Source: Halopenitus persicus (GTDB lineage Archaea > Halobacteriota > Halobacteria > Halobacteriales > Haloferacaceae). From it: 64,000 nt of DNA. The stretch lies in contig NZ_AP017558.1 in the NCBI RefSeq assembly GCF_002355635.1, positions 2,170,001 through 2,234,000 of the forward strand, written 5' to 3'. The translations under genes and the position numbers were made by a program. A model generated the notes under the pieces. It saw only the letters and a program-made list of their open reading frames with translations, had not been told where the DNA came from and ran no database searches. Below are positions 1,247-54,624 of this stretch, piece after piece (position 1 is the stretch's first letter; each line of letters opens with the position of its first letter).

Positions 1247-1996
1247 ATGGACTGTCGGCGGTGTGGCACGCCACTGGAGAAACCGGGGGACTACTGTCTC
1301 ACCTGCAACACCGCCAACTGCGACGGCGTGGTCATCGAGTTCCGGCCCGATCGCGCCGAGGTGACGATGCTCGATGCGGACGACGTCGTCGGCCGGACGA
1401 CGGTCACCACGACGCCCGAGCGCGAGGATCCCGGCGAGCGCGGCGTCGTACAGATCCGGAACTTCGCGGGGCGCGTCGCCGACGAGGTGCGTCGAAAGCG
1501 CCCCGAGACCGTCTACGCCGCCGGCGAGCGCGATCCCCTCCGGGAGGCGCGCGCGCAGCTTCACTACGAGTTCTACCGCGTCCCGGCGGCGGGACGCCGC
1601 GACGGCGACGGCCTCGTCGAGTGGGTCCGCGACCGGCGCGGGGAGCGCTCGCTCGCGGTCGTCGACGCCGCCCCCGGCGAGAAGATCGGCGGCACCCACT
1701 CGACGCTCATCGGCGGGCGGACCGGCCGGACCGCGATCCGGACGGTGGCCGAACACCCGCACGTCAAGAAGATCGTTCCCGGACCGATCGACGCCGGCGG
1801 CACGGGCTCGCGGACCGGCCTCCGCGCGAAGGCGACCCGCGCGGATACGAACGGGAACGTTCGGCTCCTCCTCCGCGACGGTTCGAGCGTCCAGGAGAAC
1901 CGCGTCGTGACGACCGCGATGGACCGGGAGACCGGTGAGCGCGTCCGAGAGGACCTGAACGAGGCGCTCGTCGAGGCCGAACTCCGCGAGGCGTGA
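1247..1996 (+). CDS. DUF2103 family predicted metal-binding protein
   Basis: A 249-residue soluble protein. It opens with a zinc-ribbon-like cluster (CRRCG, then CLTCNTANC within the first 28 residues). The body has conserved segments such as EKIGGTHSTLIGG and HPHVKKIVPGPI, which I recognise from the archaeal DUF2103 family. Function is unknown; a nucleic-acid or metal-binding role is a family-level guess. The start was chosen at the ATG immediately before the first CxxC, because the longer upstream frame is antisense to the MATE gene. It is divergent from that gene and is followed after 45 bp by the convergent end of the aminotransferase gene. Confidence 0.75.
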   Translation: MDCRRCGTPLEKPGDYCLTCNTANCDGVVIEFRPDRAEVTMLDADDVVGRTTVTTTPEREDPGERGVVQIRNFAGRVADEVRRKRPETVYAAGERDPLREARAQLHYEFYRVPAAGRRDGDGLVEWVRDRRGERSLAVVDAAPGEKIGGTHSTLIGGRTGRTAIRTVAEHPHVKKIVPGPIDAGGTGSRTGLRAKATRADTNGNVRLLLRDGSSVQENRVVTTAMDRETGERVREDLNEALVEAELREA

Positions 1997-2041
1997 GCGC
2001 GGGGTCGCCCCCGGCGGTATCGGCGCTGCTCCCGAACCGGT

Positions 2042-3142
2042 TCACTCGAAGTAATCCGCGAGCCGCTCGGCCGCCTCCGTCGCCCGGGGCGTCACGAGCG
2101 CGAACCGGATCCACTCCTCGCGGGCGGTCCCGAACGTCTCGCCGGGCATCCCGGCCACGCCCGCCTCGTCGATCAGCCGTTTGACGTTCGCCATCGTCCC
2201 GGGGAAGCCGTCGAACCGCGCGAGCACGTAGAAGCCGCCGTCCGGCGTCGTGTACTCGGCGCCGGCGGCCTCCAGGGCGTCGGTGAACGCGTCGATCCGG
2301 TCGGCAAGCAGCTCGCGCGACGCCTCGAAGTACTCCCGACCCGTCGACTGCAACGCGTGGTGGACCGCGTACTGTGAGGGCGCGGGGCCGGTGACGTTGA
2401 CGAGCATGTGGCGCGCCCGGAGGGAGTCGGCGTGTTCCGGCGGCGTGATCGCGTAGCCGACCCGGAAGCCGGTGATCGCCAGCGACTTCGAGAAGCCCCC
2501 GGTGACGATCCGGTTCGGGGAGTCGATCGCGAGGGCGCTCTCGAAGCGCCCGGAGTGGTCGAACCGGTCGTAGACCTCGTCGACGACGACGAGCGCGTCG
2601 TGTGCCTCGGCCAGCCGGACGACCTCGGCGACCGCCTCAGGATCGTAGACCGCGCCGGTCGGATTGTTCGGCGTGTTCACCATCACGAGCGCGGTCCGGT
2701 CGCTCATCGCCTCCCGGATCGCCGCGAGGTCGATGCCGCCGTCGCGGGCGGTCGGGACGAGCCGCTGGGTCCCGCCGAGCAGCTCGACCTTGCCGGGGTA
2801 GTACGGGTAGACCGGGTCGAGCAGGATCGCCTCGTCGCCCGCGTCGCGCTCGAACGCGCGCGCCATCGCGAGGTAGTTCGCCTCGCCGGTGCCGACCGTG
2901 ACGACGACCTGGTCCGGGTCGACCCCTCGCCGCTCCGCGATCGCCTCCCGAAGCTCGGGGAGCCCGTCGCTGGCCGGGTACTGAAACGCCGCCGGATCGA
3001 GGCCGGCGTACTCCCGGAGCGCATCCCGGAGCGCCTGCGGAGGCTCCCAGTCCGGGTTCCCGCTCACCATATCGATGACGTCCCGGTCCGCGGTCGCCGC
3101 GTACTGCATCACGCGAAAGAATTGCGGCTCCTCGTAGTCCAT
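2042..3142 (-). CDS. pyridoxal-phosphate-dependent class I/II aminotransferase
   Basis: A 366-residue fold-type I aminotransferase. Visible signatures are VSGNPDWEPP near the N-terminus, the NNPTGAVYDPEAV segment that contacts substrate and cofactor, the VVVDEVYDRF cofactor-ring motif, and the Schiff-base lysine in GGFSKSLAITGFRVGY. Cytosolic enzymes of this group transfer amino groups between 2-oxoglutarate/glutamate and aspartate, aromatic or related amino acids. The exact substrate cannot be read from sequence. Length is near-typical, perhaps slightly short at the N-terminus. It is transcribed alone; the CaCA exchanger follows downstream on the opposite side of its start, on the same strand but with its own start at 4207. 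Confidence 0.85.
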   Translation of the reverse strand: MDYEEPQFFRVMQYAATADRDVIDMVSGNPDWEPPQALRDALREYAGLDPAAFQYPASDGLPELREAIAERRGVDPDQVVVTVGTGEANYLAMARAFERDAGDEAILLDPVYPYYPGKVELLGGTQRLVPTARDGGIDLAAIREAMSDRTALVMVNTPNNPTGAVYDPEAVAEVVRLAEAHDALVVVDEVYDRFDHSGRFESALAIDSPNRIVTGGFSKSLAITGFRVGYAITPPEHADSLRARHMLVNVTGPAPSQYAVHHALQSTGREYFEASRELLADRIDAFTDALEAAGAEYTTPDGGFYVLARFDGFPGTMANVKRLIDEAGVAGMPGETFGTAREEWIRFALVTPRATEAAERLADYFE

Positions 3143-3229
3143 GGGTGGCGATCGTCGCGGATCCCCGTGTGTGTTTCGTGATCGGTCGACGTGGACGGCA
3201 GCGTCCCTCTCTGCCGCCGGGAGTCGATC

Positions 3230-4207
3230 CTAGGGAAACAGCAGGTAGACGAACGCAACGTAGGCGCCGAGGAGGATCGCGCCGTCCGCTCGGGAGATCC
3301 ATCGGCCGCGAAGCATCAAGGCGACGACCAGGAGGGTGAACGCGACGAGCGCGGGGAACTCGAAGGACCGTACCCCGACCGAGATCTCGACGGGCGTGAT
3401 CACGGCGAGGACGCCGATCACGGCGAGGACGTTGTAGATGTTCGATCCGACGACGTTGCCCACGCTGAACTCGGCCTCCCCGCGGACCGCGGAGACGGCC
3501 GAGGCGGCGAGCTCGGGCAGCGAGGTGCCCAGCGCTAACACGGTGAGCCCGATGAACAGCTCGGAGAAGCCCGCAGCGATCAACAACCCCCGTCCACCGT
3601 CGATGAGCCAGCTGGAGCCGGCAAGCAGCGCGATCAACCCACCGACGATGTAGCCGACGTCGAGGAGAGCCGGGTCCGGCATCCGGTCACGCTCGGCCGC
3701 TGAGATGGACGCCTGGGTCCGTTGAATGCGCCGCAGGACGACCCAGGTGAACGCGACCAGCGCCGCGAGCAGCACGACGCCGTCGACCACACCCAGCCGT
3801 CCGTCGAGTCCGAGTCCCACGAGCAGGAGCGCGGCGAGGATCATGAAGGGGACGTGGCTTTTTAAGACGGTCTCGGTCACGTCCAGCGGCCGGATGAGCG
3901 CGGAGACGCCGAGCACGAGGCCGATGTTGGCCACGTTCGACCCGAGGATCGCGCCGAGGCCGATGTCCGTCGAGACGGTGACCGCTCCCACGAGCGTGAC
4001 GAACAGCTCCGGGGTCGTCGTCGCGAACGCGACCACCGTCACGCCGACGGTCGAGGCGCGCAGGCCGAAGCCCAACGCGAGCTCGGCGGCACCCTTCACC
4101 AGCAGCTCCGCGCCGGCGTACAGCAGGGCGATCCCGGCCGCCAACAGCAACACGTCGACGATCGGCGCGGCGAGTGGCACGCCCGTCCCTTCCGGCACGG
4201 GCGGCAA
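3230..4207 (-). CDS. CaCA-superfamily sodium/calcium (cation) antiporter
   Basis: A 325-residue membrane protein with about ten hydrophobic helices and the two inverted alpha-repeats of the Ca2+/cation antiporter superfamily. Repeat 1 carries [11 protein letters not shown] and [12 protein letters not shown]; repeat 2 carries [10 protein letters not shown] and [12 protein letters not shown]. The acidic residues in both TPEL/LPEL motifs are the ion ligands in this family. The protein resembles the YrbG/MaX group, which exchanges Na+ for Ca2+ at the cytoplasmic membrane. The short central hydrophilic loop ([15 protein letters not shown]) is typical of prokaryotic members. It is divergent from aroE, with 76 bp between starts. 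Confidence 0.88.
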
Positions 4208-11659: not shown

Positions 11660-12586
11660 TCAGTCGTCGGCCGGCGCGGGCGAGGAGAAGCTGACGTCCG
11701 CGGCGTCGACGCCGAGCTCGTCGATGGCGGACTGGGCCGCGCGCTTGCCGGAGACCAGCATCGCGCCGAAGGTCGGCCCCATCCGCGGGAGCCCGTAGGC
11801 CGTCGCGACCGACATCCCGGTGGCGATCAGGCCGTCGTGGACGACGCCGGTGTGGTCGACGACGGCGTCCTCGCTCTCGGAGACCCACATCGAGTCGTGG
11901 CCGGGCGAGTCGTGGCCGGGCGCGCCGTACTGGTCGTCGCCGGTCGCGTCCATCCCGGTGTTGTGCTCCTTGGCGTGCTCGATGCCGGGCGCCTCGAAGA
12001 CGCCGCGCTCGTCGAGCTTGCTGATCGCGACCGCCTCGTGGCCCGTCGCGTCGATGACGAGGTCGGACTCGACCGCGATCGGGTCGACGCAGGTGATCTC
12101 GCGGGGGAGGGCGTGGACCGGCGTCCAGTTCATCACGATGCCGCCGACGCGGTGGTCGTCGCGGACCACGATGTCGGTGAACTCCGTCATGTTCTGGATC
12201 TTCGCGCCGGCGTCACAGGCCGCCTTGATGAGTCCGGAACAGGCCTCGGGGCCGTTCGAGACGTAGAGTCCCTCGGCCTCCTCGGTCGGCTCGTAGTCGA
12301 CGTCGAGTTCGTCGAGGACCTCCTGGGCCGGATCCCGGACGGTGACCTTGTTCATCAGGAAGCCGCCGAGCCAGAAGCCGCCGCCGAGGTAGTTGTTCTT
12401 CTCGACGACCATCACCTTCACGCCGCGCTCGGCCAGCTCCTTGGCCGCCATCAGCCCGGAGGGGCCGCCGCCGACGATGATCACCTCGGACTCGGTGAAC
12501 TCCTGGAACTCCTCGCTCCAGGCGTTGCCGATCGCCTTGGTCACGTTTGCCTCGCTCACGTCGCTGAACGAATCGAAGTCGCTCAT
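11660..12586 (-). CDS. thi4: thiazole synthase Thi4
   Basis: A 308-residue enzyme making the ADP-thiazole precursor of thiamine from NAD and glycine. A dinucleotide-binding Rossmann motif ([13 protein letters not shown], residues 36-48) is followed by the acidic VVEKNN. Further family segments are [21 protein letters not shown] and [20 protein letters not shown]. Residue 166 is a cysteine (REITCVDPI), corresponding to the active-site cysteine that donates sulfur in the yeast enzyme and is present in Haloferax Thi4. Methanogen homologues that use free sulfide lack it. The promoter region carries an inverted ACAACC/GGTTGT pair. Confidence 0.93.
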
Positions 12587-12624
12587 ACAACCAATGAATA
12601 TTCTCGAGTTGTATTAGTGGTTGT
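12587..12624. promoter_or_regulatory. inverted repeat ACAACC-N26-GGTTGT flanking the thi4 promoter
   Basis: ACAACC (12587-12592) directly abuts the thi4 start codon, and GGTTGT (12619-12624) lies just beyond the A/T-rich presumed TATA region (~12609-12616). The half-sites bracket the promoter, a suitable arrangement for repressor binding. ThiR, encoded 5 kb away, is the natural candidate; this is inference. Confidence 0.4.
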
Positions 12625-12706
12625 GGTGTGGATTCACCGGCCGTTGGGCAAGACAGTTCAACCGCGGGGGAAACGCTTGAGTCGGTCCCCCGCCGAGCAT
12701 CCGGCG

Positions 12707-13198
12707 ATGAACAAACGCGGTCACGTGCTCAACGCGCTGTTGCTCGCGGTCGGCGTCGGATTCGTGCTGGAGCCGGCCGTCGACCGGGACACGGCGATCA
12801 AGGTCGCTCAGGTCACCGTTCCCATCGTCCTCGGGGCGCTGTTTCCGGACGTCGACACCGCCTTCGGAAAACACCGGAAGACGCTGCACAGCCTCACCGT
12901 GCTCGGGATCGTGGCGGCCTACCCGATCGTCTTCGGCAACCTGCAGTACGTCTGGGTCGGCGTTCTCACGCACTACATCCTCGATCTCGTCGGGAGTCGG
13001 CGCGGGATCGCGCTGTTCCACCCGCTGTCGAGTTCGGAGTACTCGCTACCGTTCGGCGTCACGACCTCCAGCGACTACGCGGACCTCGTCACGGTGATCA
13101 TCACCGCCCTCGAGATCGCCGCGTTCTGGGCGGTCCACACCTACGTCGTCGACCTGAACGTCGACGTCACGGCCGTCTCGCAGGCGATCGGCATCTGA
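12707..13198 (+). CDS. YdjM/DUF457-type membrane-bound metal-dependent hydrolase-like protein
   Basis: A 163-residue membrane protein with about four hydrophobic segments. The motifs match the YdjM (DUF457) group: MNKRGHVLNALLL at the start, LGALFPDVDTAFGKHRKTLHSL with an Asp-x-Asp and the R-x-x-x-H-S element, then LTHYILDLVGSRRG. The conserved His and Asp residues are thought to form a metal site facing the cytoplasm. The substrate is unknown. The ATG at 12707 is the only start placing the conserved opening at residue 1. Divergent from thi4. Confidence 0.75.
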   Translation: MNKRGHVLNALLLAVGVGFVLEPAVDRDTAIKVAQVTVPIVLGALFPDVDTAFGKHRKTLHSLTVLGIVAAYPIVFGNLQYVWVGVLTHYILDLVGSRRGIALFHPLSSSEYSLPFGVTTSSDYADLVTVIITALEIAAFWAVHTYVVDLNVDVTAVSQAIGI

Positions 13199-13249
13199 CG
13201 CTTGACTCGTCCGCGGGACGTACGCGTGGTGACGTGCTCTGACGCCGGA

Positions 13250-14020
13250 TCAGTACACGGCGACGTCGTCGAACCGGCCCTCGTAGAAGACGCTACGTGG
13301 GTTCGTCGGGTCGTCGCCCGAAAGGAACAGTCGGTCGAGCCGCTTCCAGGTGTTCTCGTAGGCCAGGTGGCCGTATTCGATCGTCCCCCGAACGCGATGG
13401 TCGAGACCGGCGCGGTGGACGATTCGACGGGGTGCGTCCGTCTTGAATGCCTCGACGACGTCCGCCGCCGTCTCCAGCTCGTCCGTGAAGGCGGTCCAGG
13501 CTTCCCCGACCGTGGCTCGGAGGTGGGCGTAGGAACTCCCGAACGCCGGCAGCTCGAGAGCTCCGGCGACGCGGCCCGCCCGTCGGTTCTGGTGGGGCAA
13601 CAGCTTCGCGTTGTACGTCTCGATCGCGTCGATCCGGTCGCGGTGGGCGTCGAGCTCCGGTCGGGTGAGCGAGACGGTCGCGAACGTCGGATGGGGAACG
13701 AGGATGGCCGCGTCCTGGCGTTCGAGCTCGGCCATCGCCCCCTCGAAGGTGATGAAATCCGGAATCGGCTCCGAGAGCCCGAGCGCGAGGAGATGCCGGC
13801 GGTTCCGCCAGTCGCCGGTGAAGACCTCGCGGGCGGGCACGACGAGCAGGTCGTCGTCGGAGAACCGCTTGGCCCGCTCGCGGATCGTCGGGAGCCGCTC
13901 GAAGTGTGGCGCGTAGACGAGCGCGTCGAGCCCGCGCGCCGTCGCGCGCTCGACGACGGTCTCGTCGAGTACCTTCACGTGGGCGTCGACCCGGGTCCCG
14001 GTGTGTGGCACGTTCGGCAC
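13250..14020 (-). CDS. PHP-domain-like protein with altered metal motif
   Basis: A 256-residue soluble protein resembling PHP-type metallophosphoesterases: ARGLDALVYAPHFERLPTI, LLVVPAREVFTG, AAILVPHPTF, and IETYNAKLLPHQN. In classical PHP proteins the N-terminal motif is D-x-H-x-H; here it reads VDAHVKVL, so the second histidine is a lysine. Two other histidines (APHF, VPHP) are kept. It may still bind metal or may be a divergent family. The start at 14020 is the first ATG in frame. It is convergent with the YdjM-like gene and divergent from the zinc-finger gene. Confidence 0.65.
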   Translation of the reverse strand: MPNVPHTGTRVDAHVKVLDETVVERATARGLDALVYAPHFERLPTIRERAKRFSDDDLLVVPAREVFTGDWRNRRHLLALGLSEPIPDFITFEGAMAELERQDAAILVPHPTFATVSLTRPELDAHRDRIDAIETYNAKLLPHQNRRAGRVAGALELPAFGSSYAHLRATVGEAWTAFTDELETAADVVEAFKTDAPRRIVHRAGLDHRVRGTIEYGHLAYENTWKRLDRLFLSGDDPTNPRSVFYEGRFDDVAVY

Positions 14021-14142
14021 GTCGGGCGCCCCACAGCAAATGCGTGTCGTTCCCCGCCGACACCGACCGCGAGGATGCGGCCGGGGCGACCGGGCGGCTG
14101 CGGGGGAAAACGGTTAATGCAGCCCGGGCCGTCGGACCACGT

Positions 14143-14433
14143 ATGCCCGGCTGGACGTGTGGGATCAGCGGATGTCGCGCCGCCTTCGACGACGTCGAGT
14201 CGGCGATCGTTCACCAGACGACCGAGCACCAGCGACACGAGTGTAAGGTCTGCGGGACCGTCATCCCGGACGGCTACTTCGCGATCCGCCACGCGTTCGA
14301 CGAACACACCCGCGCCGAGTACGTCCGCGCATACGATGCCGACTCCGAGGACGTCCGCGAGCGCGAGCGGATCAAGGAGACGGTCGAGTCGACCGCCGAC
14401 CTCCAGTCGGTCGTCGAGCGGATCAACGGCTGA
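14143..14433 (+). CDS. small C2H2/C2C2-type zinc-finger protein
   Basis: A 96-residue haloarchaeal protein. The N-terminal ~60 residues have cysteine and histidine pairs suitable for two zinc sites: CGISGC with HQTTEHQRH, then CKVCG with HAFDEH. The C-terminus is an acidic amphipathic helix (RERIKETVESTADLQSVVERI). Small zinc-finger proteins are abundant in haloarchaea, and their targets are mostly unknown. ATG 14143 was chosen because it lies directly before the first CxxxxC and follows a TATA-like TTAAT about 27 bp upstream. Confidence 0.7.
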   Translation: MPGWTCGISGCRAAFDDVESAIVHQTTEHQRHECKVCGTVIPDGYFAIRHAFDEHTRAEYVRAYDADSEDVRERERIKETVESTADLQSVVERING

Positions 14434-43194: not shown

Positions 43195-43725
43195 ATGGCA
43201 CGACCCAAAGGAAAGCTGCTCGCGCTGGTATTGGTCTTCGGAGCGATCACCGTCGTCACGGCCACGGGCGCGTTCACCACGGTGGAGGCGGAACGGACAG
43301 CTGACGTGAACGTTTCCGGTGATGCATCCGCACTGCTCGCGTTGGAACCTGGTCCCGAGAACGGAGAGTATGTAACGACCGATGGCGGAGAAGTCCAGAT
43401 TCAGCTCGGAGGCCCACAGGGTGCTGAGGGGGTCAACGTGAACTCATACACCGCCATAAATGGGATGATGAATGTCACGAACAATGGCCAGAATGAGATC
43501 AATCTACACGTGAACACGAACGGATCGCACCCGGAGTATGTCAACATCTATAACGGATCGGCTGGGTCGGGAACGAACATCACTGACGGCGAAAATTCCG
43601 TCACCCTCTCACCCGGTGATACGGTTCAGATCTCGATGGAGATCGACACTCGCGATTCCGGGCTCGACGATGGTGCTGACCTCATCGACAGCATCGAGTT
43701 CGTCGCCGAGAGCACGGATAACTAA
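43195..43725 (+). CDS. secreted TasA/DUF1102-like beta-protein
   Basis: A 176-residue secreted protein. It has an N-terminal signal or anchor segment (GKLLALVLVFGAITVVTATGAFTTVEAER) followed by a beta-rich domain with NVSGDASALLALEPGPENGEYV, GVNVNSYTAINGMMNVTNNGQNEINLHV and VTLSPGDTVQISMEIDTRDS. The pattern is that of haloarchaeal DUF1102/SipW-associated proteins related in style to TasA/camelysin. Six or more N-x-S/T sequons suggest glycosylation. Codons are slightly richer in A/T than the neighbours. The same domain opens the next gene's product, 117 bp downstream. Confidence 0.7.
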   Translation: MARPKGKLLALVLVFGAITVVTATGAFTTVEAERTADVNVSGDASALLALEPGPENGEYVTTDGGEVQIQLGGPQGAEGVNVNSYTAINGMMNVTNNGQNEINLHVNTNGSHPEYVNIYNGSAGSGTNITDGENSVTLSPGDTVQISMEIDTRDSGLDDGADLIDSIEFVAESTDN

Positions 43726-43842: not shown

Positions 43843-46044
43843 ATGAACCCACGCTCCATCACCGCTGCCCTCGCCGTCATACTCGCGATCGGCGCGGTAG
43901 TGGCGACCGGAGCGGTGCTGGGGACGGCCGGGTCGCCGACGGAGACCCTTTTTAACGGCGAGCCGGACGTCGCGTTCGGCGCCACCAACGGAACGAACGG
44001 GAACTACGTGGTGAGCGACGACGACGGCGAGCTCCGGATCGACCTCACGGATCCGGGCGTGAACGCGGAGTCGTACACGACCGTCGACCGGATCTTCTAC
44101 CTGCACAATCAGGACACCCAAAACGTCAGCGTGTGGGTGACCCACGACGGCGGCGAGCGAGTGTCGATGACGAGCGACGAGGGCGGAACGCCGATCGAGG
44201 GCGAGGGGAACGCCGTCACGCTCGCGCCGGGCGAGCGCGTGGTCGTGAACGTCGGCCTCGACAGCCGGGGCATCGAGGAAGGTGACCGGCTCCTCACGAG
44301 CGTGACGATCCACACCGGCTACGAGCTCGAGGAGGAGGTCGGTGACGGTAACGACACCGACGAGAACGCGTCCGACGGTGGCCCCGAAACGCCCGGATCC
44401 GGCGGCGGGGGCGTCGGCGGTGGTGGGGGCGTCGGCGGAGGCGGGGTGGGCGTGCCGGGCGAGGAGACCCCCGGAACGACGCCCGGCGAGGAGGGTGCGG
44501 AGGGCGGTGCGCCCGGCGAGGACGTGATCGACTCCGAGACCGGCGTGGAGGTCGAGTTCGAGGGCGATCCGGGCGAGGACGGGACGTCCGACGCGGACGG
44601 CGGCGAGGGGTCGGCGGGCGATACGGGGGTCACCGTCCGGGAACTCTCGAACGAGGACCTCGAGGCGATCGACACCACCGCCGCCGACCAGGACCCACGC
44701 GCGGTGATCTCGACGGCGGAAGACGAGGACGGCGACGGGGTCGATGACGACGGTGACGGCGCAGGAAGTGCGGGCGCAGCTGGCGGCGCCGAGGGGGACG
44801 CGATCGACCTCGCGAAGGGCACCATCGTGACGACCGTCGGGGAGCCCGCCCGACTCTCGGGCGAGCGGTCGACGATCAGCGTCTCGAGCGGGATCACGAA
44901 GCAGGACCGGATCGTGCGCGCGGTGGACATCGAGCCGTCCGACGGTCGCCGGGATCGCCCGGCCACGGTGCGGCTGCGCGTCGACCGCGACCAGTTTGGC
45001 GACGCCGACCCCTCGGGCGCGACCCTCGGCCACCGGACCGAGAACGGCTGGGAGCTGCTCGACACTCGGGTGACGGAGACGACCGAGGACTACGTGGTCG
45101 TTTCCGCACGCACGCGCAGCTTCTCGCCGTTCGCGGTCTTCGTCGACCCGGACGTCACCTACCAGTGGACGCTGCCGGACGGGACCACCCGGAACGGCCG
45201 GACGCTCGAGTACACCTTCGCGGAGCCGGGCCAGTACGAGGTCGGGCTCACCGTCCGCGACGCTCTCGGCCGCGAGAACACGGTCCGCCGGACGGTCATC
45301 GCCAACGACGTGCCGACCGCCGAGGTCTCCGCGGAGTACGACCGGGCGGCCGAGACGGCGACCCTCACCGCGGACGTCACGAACGAGGTCGGCGACGCGA
45401 CGGTGACCTGGACGTTCGCCGACGGCACCACGAAGACCGGCGAGACGGTCACCCACCCCCTCGAACCCGGCGAGCACGTGGTGGACGTGCGCGTGGCCGA
45501 CGAGTACGGGGCCGCCACCGAGACCACCGAGCGGATCGCGGTCGCGACCGGCTGGTCGGTCGCCTCCCGACTCTCGGCGCTGGGTAGCGGCAGCACGGTC
45601 CTCTGGCAGACGCTCCTGTCGCTGACCGCCCTCGGACTCATCCTCGCCGCCTATCGCTACCTCCCGTGGGGGCGCATCGTCCCGGAGGGTCGCGGCCCCC
45701 GAATCACGGTCTTCGAGGACCCCCGCGTGAGCCTCGAGACCAACCGCTTCGAGATCGGCGCACTGACGGTCGTCGATCCCCAGGTCGCGCTCGATACGAT
45801 CTCCATCGAGATCGTCGACGCGGAGGGCACCGAAATCGTCCGCAAGCGCCTCGAGATCGTCGGCGACCGGGAGTACGCAGCTAAAAACGAGGCGATCGTC
45901 GTACCGCCGGGGACCGACCTCGACCCCGAGGGGAACTACCGGATCCGGGTGACCGCCCGCAACGTGCGCGACCGAACCGGGTCGCTCGAGGGGACGTCGG
46001 TTCGCATCGTCTCCACGCTCACGGAGCCGGTTCCGGCGGTTTGA
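43843..46044 (+). CDS. surface protein: DUF1102-like, PKD-like domains, transmembrane helix and inner beta-domain
   Basis: A 733-residue protein. Order: signal segment (1-30), a beta-domain like that of the preceding gene (~40-165), a Gly/Val hinge (~186-206), an acidic region, and a domain with RLRVDRDQFGDADPSG and FSPFAVF that resembles the PGF-pre-PGF domain. Then come two PKD-like repeats (YQWTLPDGTTRNGRTLEYTF; VTWTFADGTTKTGETVTHPL), a transmembrane helix (~588-606) and a ~125-residue C-terminal beta-domain with ISIEIVDAEGTEIVRKRLEI. The last domain lies after the membrane span, hence probably inside the cell. Function unknown; probably a partner of the smaller secreted protein. Confidence 0.7.
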   Translation: MNPRSITAALAVILAIGAVVATGAVLGTAGSPTETLFNGEPDVAFGATNGTNGNYVVSDDDGELRIDLTDPGVNAESYTTVDRIFYLHNQDTQNVSVWVTHDGGERVSMTSDEGGTPIEGEGNAVTLAPGERVVVNVGLDSRGIEEGDRLLTSVTIHTGYELEEEVGDGNDTDENASDGGPETPGSGGGGVGGGGGVGGGGVGVPGEETPGTTPGEEGAEGGAPGEDVIDSETGVEVEFEGDPGEDGTSDADGGEGSAGDTGVTVRELSNEDLEAIDTTAADQDPRAVISTAEDEDGDGVDDDGDGAGSAGAAGGAEGDAIDLAKGTIVTTVGEPARLSGERSTISVSSGITKQDRIVRAVDIEPSDGRRDRPATVRLRVDRDQFGDADPSGATLGHRTENGWELLDTRVTETTEDYVVVSARTRSFSPFAVFVDPDVTYQWTLPDGTTRNGRTLEYTFAEPGQYEVGLTVRDALGRENTVRRTVIANDVPTAEVSAEYDRAAETATLTADVTNEVGDATVTWTFADGTTKTGETVTHPLEPGEHVVDVRVADEYGAATETTERIAVATGWSVASRLSALGSGSTVLWQTLLSLTALGLILAAYRYLPWGRIVPEGRGPRITVFEDPRVSLETNRFEIGALTVVDPQVALDTISIEIVDAEGTEIVRKRLEIVGDREYAAKNEAIVVPPGTDLDPEGNYRIRVTARNVRDRTGSLEGTSVRIVSTLTEPVPAV

Positions 46045-48733: not shown

Positions 48734-48784
48734 CTCACCGGTCGACGTTCCTCACCGGTCGACGTTCCTCACCGGTCGACGTTC
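48734..48784. repeat. 17 bp tandem repeat at the artA 3' end
   Basis: Three exact 17 bp units (48734-48750, 48751-48767, 48768-48784) overlap the last codons and stop of artA, whose C-terminus NVDR comes from the innermost unit. Because 17 is not a multiple of three, each unit offers a stop codon in a different frame. Confidence 0.92.
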
Positions 48785-49740
48785 GTCGGCTCCCGCGGGA
48801 GCTCGAGCGCCTCGAGCAGGTCGTGTTCCTCCCCGGTCAGCACGTAGAGGACGTCCTCGAGGACGACCACGAGCTCCGGAAGCTGCCGGGCCACGAGGTA
48901 GGTGATCCCGATGAGGGCGACGACGGCGAGCAGCTGGCTGAGGATCCGGTCGGAGACGAAAAAGGAGACGCGGTAGGGGTCGCTCGCGCCGAACATCGCC
49001 AGGACGAGCTCCGGCTGCCAGTGCATGTACTGGTTGCCCGTGACGATCGTGATGAACGTGGTCCGGGCGATGTTCAGAACGTAGATGAGCGGGATCGAGA
49101 CGGCGAGTCCGCGGAGCTTCCGGGAGACGGGGGCGTCGACGGCGGCGATGAGGCCGCCGAAGATCGCCATGCTCCCGATGCCGGTACACGCGAGCACGAC
49201 CGACACGAGGATGACGTGCTCCTCGGGACCGTAGACCCACCGGAAGGTAGCCCAGTAGCCCTCCGAGCTCTCGATCATCGTCGGCGCGTACCCGAGGAGG
49301 TCGATGAGGGTCGCGGTCTGGGCGGCGACGATCTCGATGAGCACTCGCTTGGGTTCCGGCAACGTCACCCCGCCGACGGTCATCGCCGGGATCGTCTCGA
49401 ACGGGAGATAGATCAACAGCATCGCCGCGACCGCGCGCGTCAGGACGAACAGGGATTCCCGGCCGCGGTGGAGGAGGTATCCGGCGTAGGTACACGCGGG
49501 AACGGCGACCAGCGAGAGGACGCTCTCGACGTAGCTCTGGTGTTCGAAGGCGAAGTACGGCACCATCGTGAGCCAGAAGAGACCGAACAGTACCCACGCA
49601 CCCGCCGCAAGCGACCGGCCGGCTGGAAGCCCGCGGCGGTCGAGGAGGGCGCCGATCGCGAACAGGATCGCGACGAGCCACGCGAACGTGAACGTATCGG
49701 GCAGCGCGGTGAGCACCGACTGTCCGAGCACGTCAAGCAT
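48769..49740 (-). CDS. artA: archaeosortase A
   Basis: A 323-residue, ~8-helix membrane enzyme that processes PGF-CTERM tails and couples them to lipid anchoring. The catalytic residues are present: Cys185 (LACTGIGSM), Arg226 (NIARTTFI) and Arg265 (SDRILSQ). Their spacings, 41 and 39 residues, equal those of Haloferax volcanii ArtA (Cys173, Arg214, Arg253). Substrates in this window include the btuF product. It lies directly downstream of the large surface-protein gene on the same strand, with 111 bp between them. Confidence 0.93.
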   Translation of the reverse strand: MLDVLGQSVLTALPDTFTFAWLVAILFAIGALLDRRGLPAGRSLAAGAWVLFGLFWLTMVPYFAFEHQSYVESVLSLVAVPACTYAGYLLHRGRESLFVLTRAVAAMLLIYLPFETIPAMTVGGVTLPEPKRVLIEIVAAQTATLIDLLGYAPTMIESSEGYWATFRWVYGPEEHVILVSVVLACTGIGSMAIFGGLIAAVDAPVSRKLRGLAVSIPLIYVLNIARTTFITIVTGNQYMHWQPELVLAMFGASDPYRVSFFVSDRILSQLLAVVALIGITYLVARQLPELVVVLEDVLYVLTGEEHDLLEALELPREPTNVDR

Positions 49741-49851: not shown

Positions 49852-52800
49852 CTATCGAACGCGACGATACGTCGCGAAAGCGAACAGCACTATGCTGATC
49901 CCCGACGCGATCGATTCGACGTCGATCCGATCCCGAATCGCCTCGAACGCTGCGAGGAGGCTACCGGTCGGATCCGCAGCGAGCGTGCCGACGACCGATT
50001 CCACGTTCCTACCGACCACCTCGACGACACCGTGGCCATCACCGACGGTGCCCGCTTCGCCACTCGCATCCCCGGATCCATCGGCCGGCCGGTCGACCTC
50101 GTCAGCCCCCGAACTTCCACCACCGGCACCGCTACCGGCACCGCTCGTCCGTCCCTCGCCAGCGGCGGGGCTGTCGACCGCGGCCGGCGGCGTCCCGGTC
50201 ATCGCCTCAGTGGCCGGATCGGCAGCCCGGATCCGGCCCTCAACGGACGGCCGCGATTCGACCCCGTCGAGGCCGTGGACGGACACGCGATACCGATCCC
50301 CGACGGTCAGCGCGGAGAGATCGACGGTTGCCGACCACGTCCCGTCGGCGGCGACCCGAACCGACTCGTTGCGGCCACGAAACTCCGACTCCGACGCGGC
50401 GATCGGCCGAATTCGAACCGTGAACTCGGTTCCCGGCGCGAGCGTGGTCGAGCCGGCGAACGACTGGTCCGGCGCGGCGTGAGCGTCGTACGGGTCTGCC
50501 GCGAACCGGACGTCGCGTTCGACCACGGTGAATCCGGTCGTTGCCTCGGAGCCGCCCGAGAGCGGCGTGATCTCGAGGGCCGATGGCGGCGTCTCGATCC
50601 CGGACGGGACCGTTGAGAGGCCGTACGAGGGGTGGCGTTCCAGGGACACGAGAGGACGAAGGTGGCCGGGACGGTCGGCGGCGGTCCCGACACGATGCCC
50701 CTGGCGGCGCGGCTCGACGATCCGGGGCCAGCCGACCGGGTCGGTCCCGCGGTCGGCCGCTCGCTGGATCCGCGGATCGGTGACGGAGAAGCCGAGGGAG
50801 ATCGCCGGTTCGGCGGCCGGATCGAGGATGGAGCCGTCCTGGAACCGGAGTTCGGCGGTGTCCACGAGCAGCGTGACGCGGTCGCGGTCGTGATCGGGAA
50901 CCACCTCGATCGTGCTCGCGCCGGGAGCGATCGTCCGGGGCGAACGGTTCACGCCGTCGTCGTCGAGCGTCTCGGTCAGATCGAGGTCGATCGGCGGGCT
51001 CTCACCCGCGTCGTCGTGGAGATCGCCGGTCCCGGTACTGGTTGTAACGTCGGTCCCGGTCCCGTCGATCGGCGACCAGTCGGGACCCGTAAGGGCGCGG
51101 AACCGCTCCGTGGCCCCCGCGTCGGGGCGGCGTTCGCCCGCCAACGCCAACAGCCCGGAGACGCTCGCGGAGTCGATCCGAACGACTGCGACGTCGCCGT
51201 ACGCGACCGTCTCGCTCCGCGTGACCGTTCCTTCCGCGCGGGCCGTCGAGAGCGCCGCAACCGGCGAGTCGGCAGCGAGTATCGACCGGGCCGTCCCTGC
51301 CGAGGTGGTCCAGCTGGAGGCGGTTCCGGAGTCCGCGGGCGCAAGCGTGAGCACACCGACGTCGGCCGGGTTGGCGACGGCCGTCCGGGGGTGCTGCGCG
51401 GTCGAGACGGTGACGGGGTACTCGCCGGGAGCTAGCGCGTCGGATCGGAGGCTCTGGTCGGTTTGCGGGTCGAACTCGATCGCTGCACCGGCGGCGGCCG
51501 ACGCCGGATCGAGCACGACCACCGAGCCGGCGGTCGTGCCCGCCGTGTAGGTGTTGAACCGGACCGTCACCGCGTCGGCGTCGCCGAAGGAGGTGATCCG
51601 GGCGGTCGCCTCGTACCCCGTGGTCGTTTCGTTCCCGATCACGAGCGCCCCGCCATCGGCGCGTTCGTCCGCCGTAACCGTGATCTCGACGACGCCGCCG
51701 GTGGTCGCGTCGACGATCGGCTCGGCAAGCGAGACCGATCCGGGACCGACGATCCCGCGGTCAGGACCGGCAACCGTCCCGTTGTCGCTGCCGTTGACAG
51801 TGGCGCCACCGTCATTCACGGGCCCCGCCCAGCCTCCGCTACCGCCTCCGCCACCGCCGCTCCCGCTGCTCCCGCCGCCGGACGTTCCCGTTCCGGTTCC
51901 GCCGTCGGACGCTCCCGAATCGGACTCGTCGGCCGCCGACCCGTCCTCGTCAGTCGATTCCTCGGAGTCCATCCCGTCAGTGTCGTCGGTCGTGTTCGTT
52001 TCATCAGTCGTCTCGGTCGTGTTCGTCCCGTCGTCGGTCACGGTCGTTGCGTCCGCGGTCGAAAGCGAGAGGGTGGCATTCGCAGTTCCGTCGGTGGCTG
52101 ATTCGGTCGTAACGATCGGATGCGTCCCATCGGCAAGCGGCTCGAGCGCGTCGTCATCGAACGTGACCGTGACGGAGCGTGACTCGCCGGCGTCGAGGCC
52201 GTCGACGGTCGCGGTCCGACGCACCGATCCCGACCCGAGATCGACGGTCACGGACACCGGATCGGTCGCGTTCGCGCCGCCGACGTTCGTGATCGTCCCC
52301 GCGATCGGAAGCGATCGGCTCCCGTTGCGCTCGTGGTCGTACGTCGTCTCGTTCAGCGTGAGCGCGTAGTGGGGCGGGTCGACGACCTTGGTCGTCCCGC
52401 TCACTCGGTCGTGGTCGCCGCGCACCGTCACGTCGAGCGTCTCGCCGGCCGACGCGTTCTCGAGATCGTGGGTCAGTTCGACGGTCTCCGTAGCCCCCGG
52501 TGCGACCGTCACCGATCGGGTGTCCGAAACCGACCCATTCACGACGAGTTCGACCGTGTCGTTATACGTCGACTTGCCAGTATTATTTAAATTAATATTA
52601 TATATGCCAAATTCTTGGTTAATGTCGACTGAGTTAGTAATATTTGTATCTAGAGTAGAGCCAACAACTTCAATAACCGATGTTGATTCCATCTCTGATA
52701 TTTTATCTCCAGTAGTAATTCCAGAATCACCAGAAACACCCACAGTATAATTCCTGGTAGATTCATCTAAAATAATGTCGCCACTAGTAGTTCCAAGTGT

Positions 52801-53595
52801 GAATGTAGCAACATTATCGGGAATTGACTTATTTAAATAGGTACGATCAACACTCCCATTATTGGAGTCATCAATACCAAGAGTCGCCTCCGTAGTCGAG
52901 TTACCAGTCTCAGCAACCACCGTCGTTTGAGTGTTATTTGTTAGATCAATCTCGGATGTAGATATATTAGTAATTGTTCGATCACGTATGTTTAATTCAA
53001 GGTTAACTTCATCCCGTCCAGTGAGATCGTTAGTGAGTGAGTTAGCACCAGTCTGTAAAAGGACATCTACACCATATCTGCCCGGATTAGATGGATTCGT
53101 CAGTTTACTTCCGGATTTTTGTTGGTTGGTATAATCACCACCATCATTGAGATATACGATTAATAGTCCGTCATCACGGATCTCAAGTGGTTGGCTAAAG
53201 TTCAGTAAAAGACGGCTGCCGTCTACATCAATGGTGTCAAAATCTTGTTGGGTTGAATAGATAACCTCAGTATAGATATCGTGCTCCGTCATTGTACCTT
53301 CATAATAGACTGTAATATCTGAAGAGGAGATGTTTCTGTCAAACACTGGCTCATTATAATCGAGTACTATGTCGCTTAGGTTAGATGTCTTAGATGATGA
53401 ATTAAAGTCAGTGATAATCTCGTGCTGAGAATCTTTATTTATATTATCACTATATGCAGTAATCGAGCTATTATTCGTGTCGATCGCCGTCGATTTACCG
53501 GCGAACCCACCCGGAACAACGCCCGCCGTAACGATGATCGCGATGAGTAGAACGGTCCGTATCGCCGATCGAGTTGTAAGGGTCTGCCTCGTCAT
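49852..53595 (-). CDS. large surface (S-layer-type) glycoprotein with AT-rich N-terminal coding segment
   Basis: A 1247-residue secreted protein. After a signal peptide (MTRQTLTTRSAIRTVLLI..., cleaved ~33) comes an N-terminal ectodomain (~39-343) dense in N-x-S/T sequons. Two CARDB-like domains follow (~345-500), then a Thr/Asp/Gly/Ser linker. The C-terminal region has domains like those of BGTF-type S-layer glycoproteins (AVTVRFNTYTAG; FAGSTTLAPGTEFTVRIRP; RVAADGTWSATVDL). It ends with a short hydrophobic helix and RRVR, without a PGF motif. ATG 53595 was chosen because the upstream extension needs a TTG. Codons for residues ~39-343 are AT-rich, unlike the rest. Confidence 0.8.
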   Translation of the reverse strand: MTRQTLTTRSAIRTVLLIAIIVTAGVVPGGFAGKSTAIDTNNSSITAYSDNINKDSQHEIITDFNSSSKTSNLSDIVLDYNEPVFDRNISSSDITVYYEGTMTEHDIYTEVIYSTQQDFDTIDVDGSRLLLNFSQPLEIRDDGLLIVYLNDGGDYTNQQKSGSKLTNPSNPGRYGVDVLLQTGANSLTNDLTGRDEVNLELNIRDRTITNISTSEIDLTNNTQTTVVAETGNSTTEATLGIDDSNNGSVDRTYLNKSIPDNVATFTLGTTSGDIILDESTRNYTVGVSGDSGITTGDKISEMESTSVIEVVGSTLDTNITNSVDINQEFGIYNINLNNTGKSTYNDTVELVVNGSVSDTRSVTVAPGATETVELTHDLENASAGETLDVTVRGDHDRVSGTTKVVDPPHYALTLNETTYDHERNGSRSLPIAGTITNVGGANATDPVSVTVDLGSGSVRRTATVDGLDAGESRSVTVTFDDDALEPLADGTHPIVTTESATDGTANATLSLSTADATTVTDDGTNTTETTDETNTTDDTDGMDSEESTDEDGSAADESDSGASDGGTGTGTSGGGSSGSGGGGGGSGGWAGPVNDGGATVNGSDNGTVAGPDRGIVGPGSVSLAEPIVDATTGGVVEITVTADERADGGALVIGNETTTGYEATARITSFGDADAVTVRFNTYTAGTTAGSVVVLDPASAAAGAAIEFDPQTDQSLRSDALAPGEYPVTVSTAQHPRTAVANPADVGVLTLAPADSGTASSWTTSAGTARSILAADSPVAALSTARAEGTVTRSETVAYGDVAVVRIDSASVSGLLALAGERRPDAGATERFRALTGPDWSPIDGTGTDVTTSTGTGDLHDDAGESPPIDLDLTETLDDDGVNRSPRTIAPGASTIEVVPDHDRDRVTLLVDTAELRFQDGSILDPAAEPAISLGFSVTDPRIQRAADRGTDPVGWPRIVEPRRQGHRVGTAADRPGHLRPLVSLERHPSYGLSTVPSGIETPPSALEITPLSGGSEATTGFTVVERDVRFAADPYDAHAAPDQSFAGSTTLAPGTEFTVRIRPIAASESEFRGRNESVRVAADGTWSATVDLSALTVGDRYRVSVHGLDGVESRPSVEGRIRAADPATEAMTGTPPAAVDSPAAGEGRTSGAGSGAGGGSSGADEVDRPADGSGDASGEAGTVGDGHGVVEVVGRNVESVVGTLAADPTGSLLAAFEAIRDRIDVESIASGISIVLFAFATYRRVR

Positions 53596-53859: not shown

Positions 53860-54624
53860 CTACTCCCGGTTCAGGATCTCGATCTCGTGGCCGTCCTGGT
53901 CGGTCGTGAACGCGTACCGGTCGTCACAGGACTCGGGGTCGCGGTAGTCGGTCGCCCCCCGCTCCATCAGCGTCTCCCAGTCGTTCTCGAGGTCGTCGGT
54001 ACGGACGCAGAGGTGTCCCCAGGAGTCGCCCAACTCGTAGCTGCGGCCGTCGTAGTTGTAGGTGAGCTCGACCGACATCGCCTCCTCGGCGGCGTCGGCG
54101 GGCTCCATGAAGTAGTTCGCGAACGAGTCGGATTCCCAACGGCCGGCCGGTTCGTACTCGAACTTGCGCGCCCAGAAGCCGATCGCCTCGTCGGCGTCCT
54201 CGACGCGGATCATCGTGTGGTCGAGGCTCCACTTCGCGCCGTGGTCGCGCTTGACGAGCTCGATCTCGTGGCCGTCCGGATCCTTCACGAACGCGTACCG
54301 GTCGTCACAGGACTCGGGGTCGCGGTAGTCCTCGACGCCGTTGGCCAGTAGCTCGTCGTAGGCGTCCTGGAGGCCGTCCTCGGGAACCCGAACCGCGATG
54401 TGACCCCACGCGTCGCCCATCTCGTAGGTCCGGTCGTCGTGGTTGTAGGTGAGCTCCAGGAGCGCGCCGTCCTCGTGGCCGCCCGGGGGCCCGAGATAGA
54501 CGTTCGTGAACGTGTCGGCCTCCCACCGGCCCGTCTCCTCGTAGCCGAAGTTGGTTCGGTACCACTCGAGGCTCTCCTCGAGGTCCTCGACGCGGATCAT
54601 CACGTGATCGAGCAGCGAATTCAT
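53860..54624 (-). CDS. tandem VOC/glyoxalase-fold protein
   Basis: A 254-residue protein of two homologous VOC modules (~1-125 and ~130-254). Each has DH(V/T)MIRVED, ELTYN, GHIAVR/GHLCVR and DGHEIE(L/I), with His and Glu residues placed as in glyoxalase I metal sites. It may be a lactoylglutathione lyase-like enzyme acting on a haloarchaeal thiol adduct (gamma-glutamylcysteine is the usual haloarchaeal thiol) or a dioxygenase-fold relative. The segment DYRDPESCDDRYAF is identical in both modules, down to a 42 bp DNA identity (53908-53949 and 54289-54330). Confidence 0.85.
   Translation of the reverse strand: MNSLLDHVMIRVEDLEESLEWYRTNFGYEETGRWEADTFTNVYLGPPGGHEDGALLELTYNHDDRTYEMGDAWGHIAVRVPEDGLQDAYDELLANGVEDYRDPESCDDRYAFVKDPDGHEIELVKRDHGAKWSLDHTMIRVEDADEAIGFWARKFEYEPAGRWESDSFANYFMEPADAAEEAMSVELTYNYDGRSYELGDSWGHLCVRTDDLENDWETLMERGATDYRDPESCDDRYAFTTDQDGHEIEILNRE

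Follow-up and report, generated by a model that had tools for sequence, protein, structure and literature searches.

An AT-rich segment in a Halopenitus surface-glycoprotein gene is shared by sister species and its low GC content is probably maintained

When a GC-rich prokaryotic gene contains a sharply bounded AT-rich patch, the patch is routinely taken as the mark of recent transfer. One such patch lies in a reverse-strand gene of Halopenitus, within a stretch of 64,000 nucleotides (the window) from a haloarchaeal genome of 3.1 Mb, and it raises the question of whether the 5′ part of the gene was imported recently or is old and kept AT-rich. The preliminary description of this locus favored the first reading, an exposed ectodomain recently replaced by acquired DNA.

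The gene and its AT-rich block

The reading frame at 49852-53595(-) is open throughout, as had been described, and encodes a product of 1247 aa. Its DUF7827 and BGTF domains and its artA neighbor identify it, at the level of sequence, as the gene for an S-layer-type surface glycoprotein of Halopenitus, which bears out its earlier assignment to this type. The features of the locus are as follows.

49852..53595, minus strand: whole coding sequence of the 1247-aa S-layer-type surface protein (BGTF/DUF7827), assigned from its domains and its orthologues in H. persicus and H. malekzadehii
53494..53595, minus strand: signal peptide, residues 1-34, recognized by eye and conserved across the three species
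52567..53481, minus strand: AT-rich segment, residues 39-343 (best-fit codons 45-339), GC3 ~0.3, genus-restricted sequence
52381..52662, minus strand: predicted Ig-like beta-sandwich, residues ~312-405 (AlphaFold2, pLDDT ~80-92)
51760..52050, minus strand: low-complexity linker, residues 516-612, Gly/Ser/Asp-rich by sequence
51400..51741, minus strand: DUF7827 domain, residues 619-732 (PF25162, 55.6 bits, above the gathering score of 27)
50269..50496, minus strand: BGTF surface domain, residues 1034-1109 (NF045517, 61.7 bits, above the curated cut-off of 40)
49852..49914, minus strand: C-terminal hydrophobic helix and Arg-rich tail, by sequence (IASGISIVLFAFATYRRVR)
48769..49740, minus strand: artA, archaeosortase A, directly downstream of the surface gene (TIGR04125, 343.9 bits, cut-off 75)
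53860..54624, minus strand: upstream glyoxalase-type gene, a marker of the conserved locus (profile match and synteny)

The preliminary description had reported a strikingly A/T-rich stretch at ~52565-53480, and all measures of composition agreed with it. GC drops from ~0.70 to 0.37-0.40 between ~52560 and ~53490, and GC3, taken per 60 codons, is 0.20-0.42 over residues 61-360 compared to 0.67-0.92 downstream; overall, it is ~0.3 for codons 39-343 and ~0.83 for the remainder of the gene. A three-segment fit to GC3 placed the block at codons 45-339 (intervals 39-48 and 338-340) with a GC3 of 0.29, preceded by 0.66 and followed by 0.83. Of the flanks that had been reported as GC-rich, the signal-peptide codons are only moderately so. 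In a genome sample of 0.42 Mb, made up of the window and 18 separate stretches of 19-20 kb, just two of 4060 sliding 900-bp windows fell below 40% GC, and both lie inside the segment. Its codon adaptation, measured against 19 window genes, was 0.134, whereas no 300-codon stretch of the reference genes scored below 0.522. Sliding-window GC and codon adaptation thus confirm that the mosaic composition is real. The many N-x-S/T sequons noted in the segment do exceed the number expected from composition (14 against 8.1), but the GC-rich neighboring residues 344-612 are more strongly enriched, with 11 against 3.4 expected, and sequon density is therefore not special to the AT-rich part.

AlphaFold2 predicted an Ig-like beta-sandwich at residues ~312-405, followed by a second beta-sandwich. 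The AT/GC border at codon 339 falls within the first of these, between two strands, which is odd for a clean domain cassette. A Foldseek search with the predicted beta-sandwich region returned proteins built of tandem beta-sandwiches, at low global TM scores, and the AT-rich domain modeled alone reached a pLDDT of 39.6. The linker at residues 516-612 separates the N-terminal beta-sandwiches from DUF7827; two species have a Gly/Ser/Asp-rich version of it, and H. malekzadehii (L032) has a long (TP)n repeat instead.

The general layout of the protein is that of the haloarchaeal BGTF/DUF7827 glycoproteins, with which it shares both domains, a signal peptide, a low-complexity linker, a C-terminal membrane helix, and an artA neighborhood like that in the genome G021 of genus g20. 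It differs from them in its N-terminal 300 residues, which are unrelated to other members, in its divergent signal peptide, and in the lack of a PGF-CTERM. The profile of ArtA-dependent S-layer glycoproteins (NF041335) matched the BGTF region weakly, at 52.5 bits and far under the cut-off of 1100, and a profile search of the genome gave no TIGR04126 match for PGF-CTERM at this gene. All three Halopenitus orthologues end in a plain hydrophobic helix without PGF-CTERM, so that in three species a BGTF gene adjacent to artA lacks the signal that ArtA processes. In G021, the interval between glyoxalase and artA holds two PGF-CTERM S-layer-type genes, and the window genome encodes, at another locus, an 824-aa S-layer-type protein with PGF-CTERM; its gene adjoins, on the same strand, that of a 552-aa DUF7827 protein (L082:8241-12833). 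A likeness by eye between the AT-rich segment and this 552-aa protein was unsupported on sequence comparison. Rfam gave no match in the surface-gene locus and PHROG none for the locus.

Sister species and the search for a donor

The window gene was compared with its orthologues in the two sequenced congeners, H. persicus and H. malekzadehii. The order glyoxalase, surface gene, artA is kept in both, and the AT-rich segment is found at the same place in both with an equally low GC3. Its 3′ end lies at codon 338-339 in the window gene and in H. persicus, and within about ten codons of this position in H. malekzadehii. Protein identity in the segment and in the rest of the gene was 83% versus 78% with H. 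persicus and 50% versus 49% with H. malekzadehii, and the corresponding divergence at fourfold sites was 0.35 versus 0.27 and 0.62 versus 0.48. The N-terminal part is thus as conserved as the C-terminal part and shares its low GC3 with both congeners, which overturns the earlier reading of a recently acquired ectodomain: judged from these alignments, an import since the split of the three species is refuted.

The synonymous sites of the segment are not conserved in sequence. With H. malekzadehii its fourfold sites are near saturation and still AT-rich, and its fourfold bases are nearly balanced between A and T in the congeners (0.34/0.36 in H. persicus, 0.33/0.36 in H. malekzadehii). Since these sites change freely, it is the composition that is kept up and not a particular sequence, and the alignments indicate that no specific DNA or RNA element is preserved in the segment.

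Relatives of the segment were found neither in 170 genomes of the family and 391 of the class nor in genome contigs, viral contigs, phages, or plasmids. The donor search covered 84,980 species genomes, with the genome- and viral-contig scans made by short peptide patterns that may miss distant relatives. Two candidates were rejected: matches of a profile of the segment (A1) to DARPins in the PDB (E 5e-4) were judged a chance resemblance of a short motif, and a weak match in genome G357 (E 0.007) aligned low-complexity beta-rich sequence only. An import or fusion predating the genus is possible, because no relative of the segment turned up in any collection searched and the 3′ border of the segment falls within a predicted beta-sandwich.

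Substitution within the block and base composition along surface genes

A joint four-state maximum-likelihood (ML) model was fitted to fourfold sites in the three species, 63 in the segment and 285 elsewhere in the gene. Branch lengths were common to the two parts, and each part had its own free root composition. The equilibrium GC was 0.29-0.32 for the segment and 0.79-0.80 for the rest. Imposing a single shared equilibrium cost a likelihood ratio (LR) of 24.2, or 26.0 when the segment was allowed its own rate, and in parametric simulations of a common equilibrium none of 60 replicates reached the observed value (maximum 8.1). At fourfold sites where the window gene differs from that of H. 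malekzadehii, GC was 0.35 within the segment compared to 0.71 outside it. Of such sites, 16 of 42 in the segment were A<->T differences compared to 3 of 155 in the GC-rich part (P 8e-10), a comparison that is less sensitive to rate variation than the ML test. A two-state ML analysis of the segment alone, with unlinked branch lengths, gave an LR of 1.1. On the evidence of these sites, substitution within the segment is itself AT-directed, and its low GC is probably maintained and not the fading scar of a transfer. This conclusion depends on the segment having evolved about as fast as the remainder of the gene, and the divergence values favor this.

Base composition along related genes provides a second line of comparison. 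GC3 was profiled in 40 BGTF surface-glycoprotein genes from genomes of the same family. Its mean was 0.707 in the first third and 0.840 in the last, the first third being lower in 39 of the 40 genes, and the difference survived amino-acid standardization (P 9e-12; the P values for this trend are indicative only, given that the genes lack phylogenetic independence and that a simple rule was used to place the start codons). In S-layer-type genes of other haloarchaeal families, the first third was lower in 20 of 20, so that across these other surface-glycoprotein genes combined it lay below the last in 59 of 60. The controls behaved differently: ileS showed a slight reverse trend across 30 genomes, exported peptide-binding transporter proteins showed a dip in the first 100 codons only with no significant difference between thirds, and in the window genome, 62 long genes without an N-terminal hydrophobic stretch showed no significant trend, while 22 long genes with such a stretch showed a weak one. 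We did not find this 5′ low-GC3 trend described in the literature searched, although this does not prove it to be new.

In three genera, the N-terminal half of the surface genes is also the variable half and is lower in GC3. The idea that variable regions turn AT-rich was accordingly favored by simple correlations, but its effect was gone once position was included; by regression, GC3 follows distance from the start codon, and identity or conservation adds nothing.

The Halopenitus gene fits the trend, with a standardized GC3 of -0.216 in its first third and +0.093 in its last, and we infer that its block is an extreme case of the milder pattern seen in surface genes. The largest dip of GC3 below the gene mean was 0.17 in the 40 other BGTF genes and is ~0.36-0.44 in Halopenitus. 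The two may also have different causes, because the general trend is gradual and T-biased (0.235 T versus 0.088 A), whereas the Halopenitus block stays level, ends abruptly on its 3′ side and, in the congeners, has nearly equal A and T; no gradual, T-biased rise was seen in it.

Possible origins and causes of the AT-rich block

If AT-rich DNA acquired horizontally had taken the place of an exposed ectodomain, this would explain the strong contrast in composition, its sharp edges, the unlikeness to the host genome, and the lack of relatives outside the genus, and variation of the haloarchaeal cell surface among strains is well documented (PMC6011602, PMC4535781, PMC3119063). If this exchange were recent, however, both congeners would hardly hold the same segment with near-identical borders and GC3, its identity and synonymous divergence would not match those of the rest of the gene, and no donor was found among phages, plasmids, viral contigs, or species genomes; we regard it as highly improbable. 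An older import or fusion, made before the genus arose and with too little time since then to ameliorate, so that nothing keeps the segment AT-rich, agrees with the orphan sequence, with the step in composition, with a border within the predicted Ig-like domain such as an old breakpoint would leave, and with the LR of 1.1 for the segment with free branch lengths. We nonetheless think it unlikely, if not strongly so, given fourfold sites that are AT-rich near saturation, the rejection of a common equilibrium (LR 24-26) when the rates of the segment are either shared with the remainder of the gene or scaled from it, and changed sites that are themselves AT-rich with many A<->T changes.

If the low GC is upheld, the cause may be sought in selection or in mutation and repair. 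The main rival on this point is an escape from GC-biased gene conversion, whereby an ectodomain too diverse among co-occurring strains for homologous recombination would drift to an AT-biased mutational equilibrium. Recombining genes of bacteria are higher in GC3 (PMC4450053), and the association of variability with lower GC3 in the N-terminal halves of surface genes from three other genera points the same way; against this, identity had no effect in partial regression once distance from the start was included, the AT-rich part of the Halopenitus gene shows no greater divergence between species than its GC-rich part, and in an experiment with Haloferax volcanii the direction of gene conversion did not track GC content (PMC8223754). 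We consider this escape rather unlikely. A local mutational bias tied to transcription, such as cytosine deamination on the exposed strand, is very unlikely. The block does lie at the 5′ end of a gene of S-layer type, and such genes are usually highly expressed; T also exceeds A in the milder trend. Yet A and T are about equal at the fourfold sites of the segment in the congeners, without a strong strand asymmetry, and the block stops sharply inside a transcribed gene.

The account that we prefer, and to which as a whole we give an even chance, joins vertical inheritance to an early gain and subsequent upkeep. The S-layer-type gene at the artA locus would have been inherited vertically in Halopenitus, and an N-terminal ectodomain of ~300 residues, now confined to the genus, would have been gained by acquisition or fusion before the genus radiated. 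Since then, the segment and the remainder of the gene would have diverged equally fast, the segment under local AT-directed substitution. The upkeep of its low GC may exaggerate a preference for AT-ending codons that depends on position and acts over the first few hundred codons of haloarchaeal S-layer-type genes. The most plausible cause would be selection on how a very abundant secreted protein is translated and exported, possibly because decoding is slower or the mRNA less structured as the first ectodomain emerges. The data show the orthology, the synteny, the equal divergence, and the separate equilibrium, as well as the 5′ low-GC3 trend and its dependence on position; we infer the early gain, the tie between the step-like block and the milder trend, and selection, rather than a bias of mutation or repair, as the cause of upkeep. 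The more general proposal, that a position-dependent force keeps the first few hundred codons of surface genes AT-ending independently of their variability and that it or a related force holds the Halopenitus block, is a tentative one that we hold with less confidence.

If maintenance is correct, a 900-bp block at a GC3 of ~0.3 with a sharp edge persists in a genome whose genes are near 0.87, and would amount to an isochore-like step that is maintained within one prokaryotic gene. A patch that looks like a textbook case of transfer is in any case old and, on the present evidence, compositionally stable, and to infer recent transfer from composition alone would have been wrong. The trend seen in 59 of 60 genes and absent from two control families raises a question on the translation and export of S-layer-type glycoproteins or, alternatively, on what determines local base composition in archaea.

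Two kinds of known systems resemble the Halopenitus segment in part. AT-rich accessory genes and ORFans of prokaryotes are lineage-restricted and low in GC, as is the segment. The segment differs from them in being part of a gene that otherwise has host codon usage and in a low GC that appears to be at a local equilibrium; such genes are also treated in PMC2718499 and PMC5303225. In Haloquadratum and Halorubrum, variable S-layer and cell-wall islands likewise sometimes contain a surface gene whose N-terminal part is unrelated between strains (PMC4535781, PMC3119063, PMC6011602). These islands vary between strains of one species, whereas the Halopenitus segment is common to three species and diverges together with the rest of its gene.

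Other departures in composition were noted on the same chromosome. A small secreted ORF at 43195-43725(+) has a GC3 of 0.68, unusually low for the window, and lies immediately upstream of a gene with a PKD domain (43843-46044), which is itself a weak match to the TafF fimbrial family. A further 20-kb stretch (L086) has a GC of 0.566, with patches below 50% GC at 1501-4100 and 12501-14200, and is possibly a genomic island.
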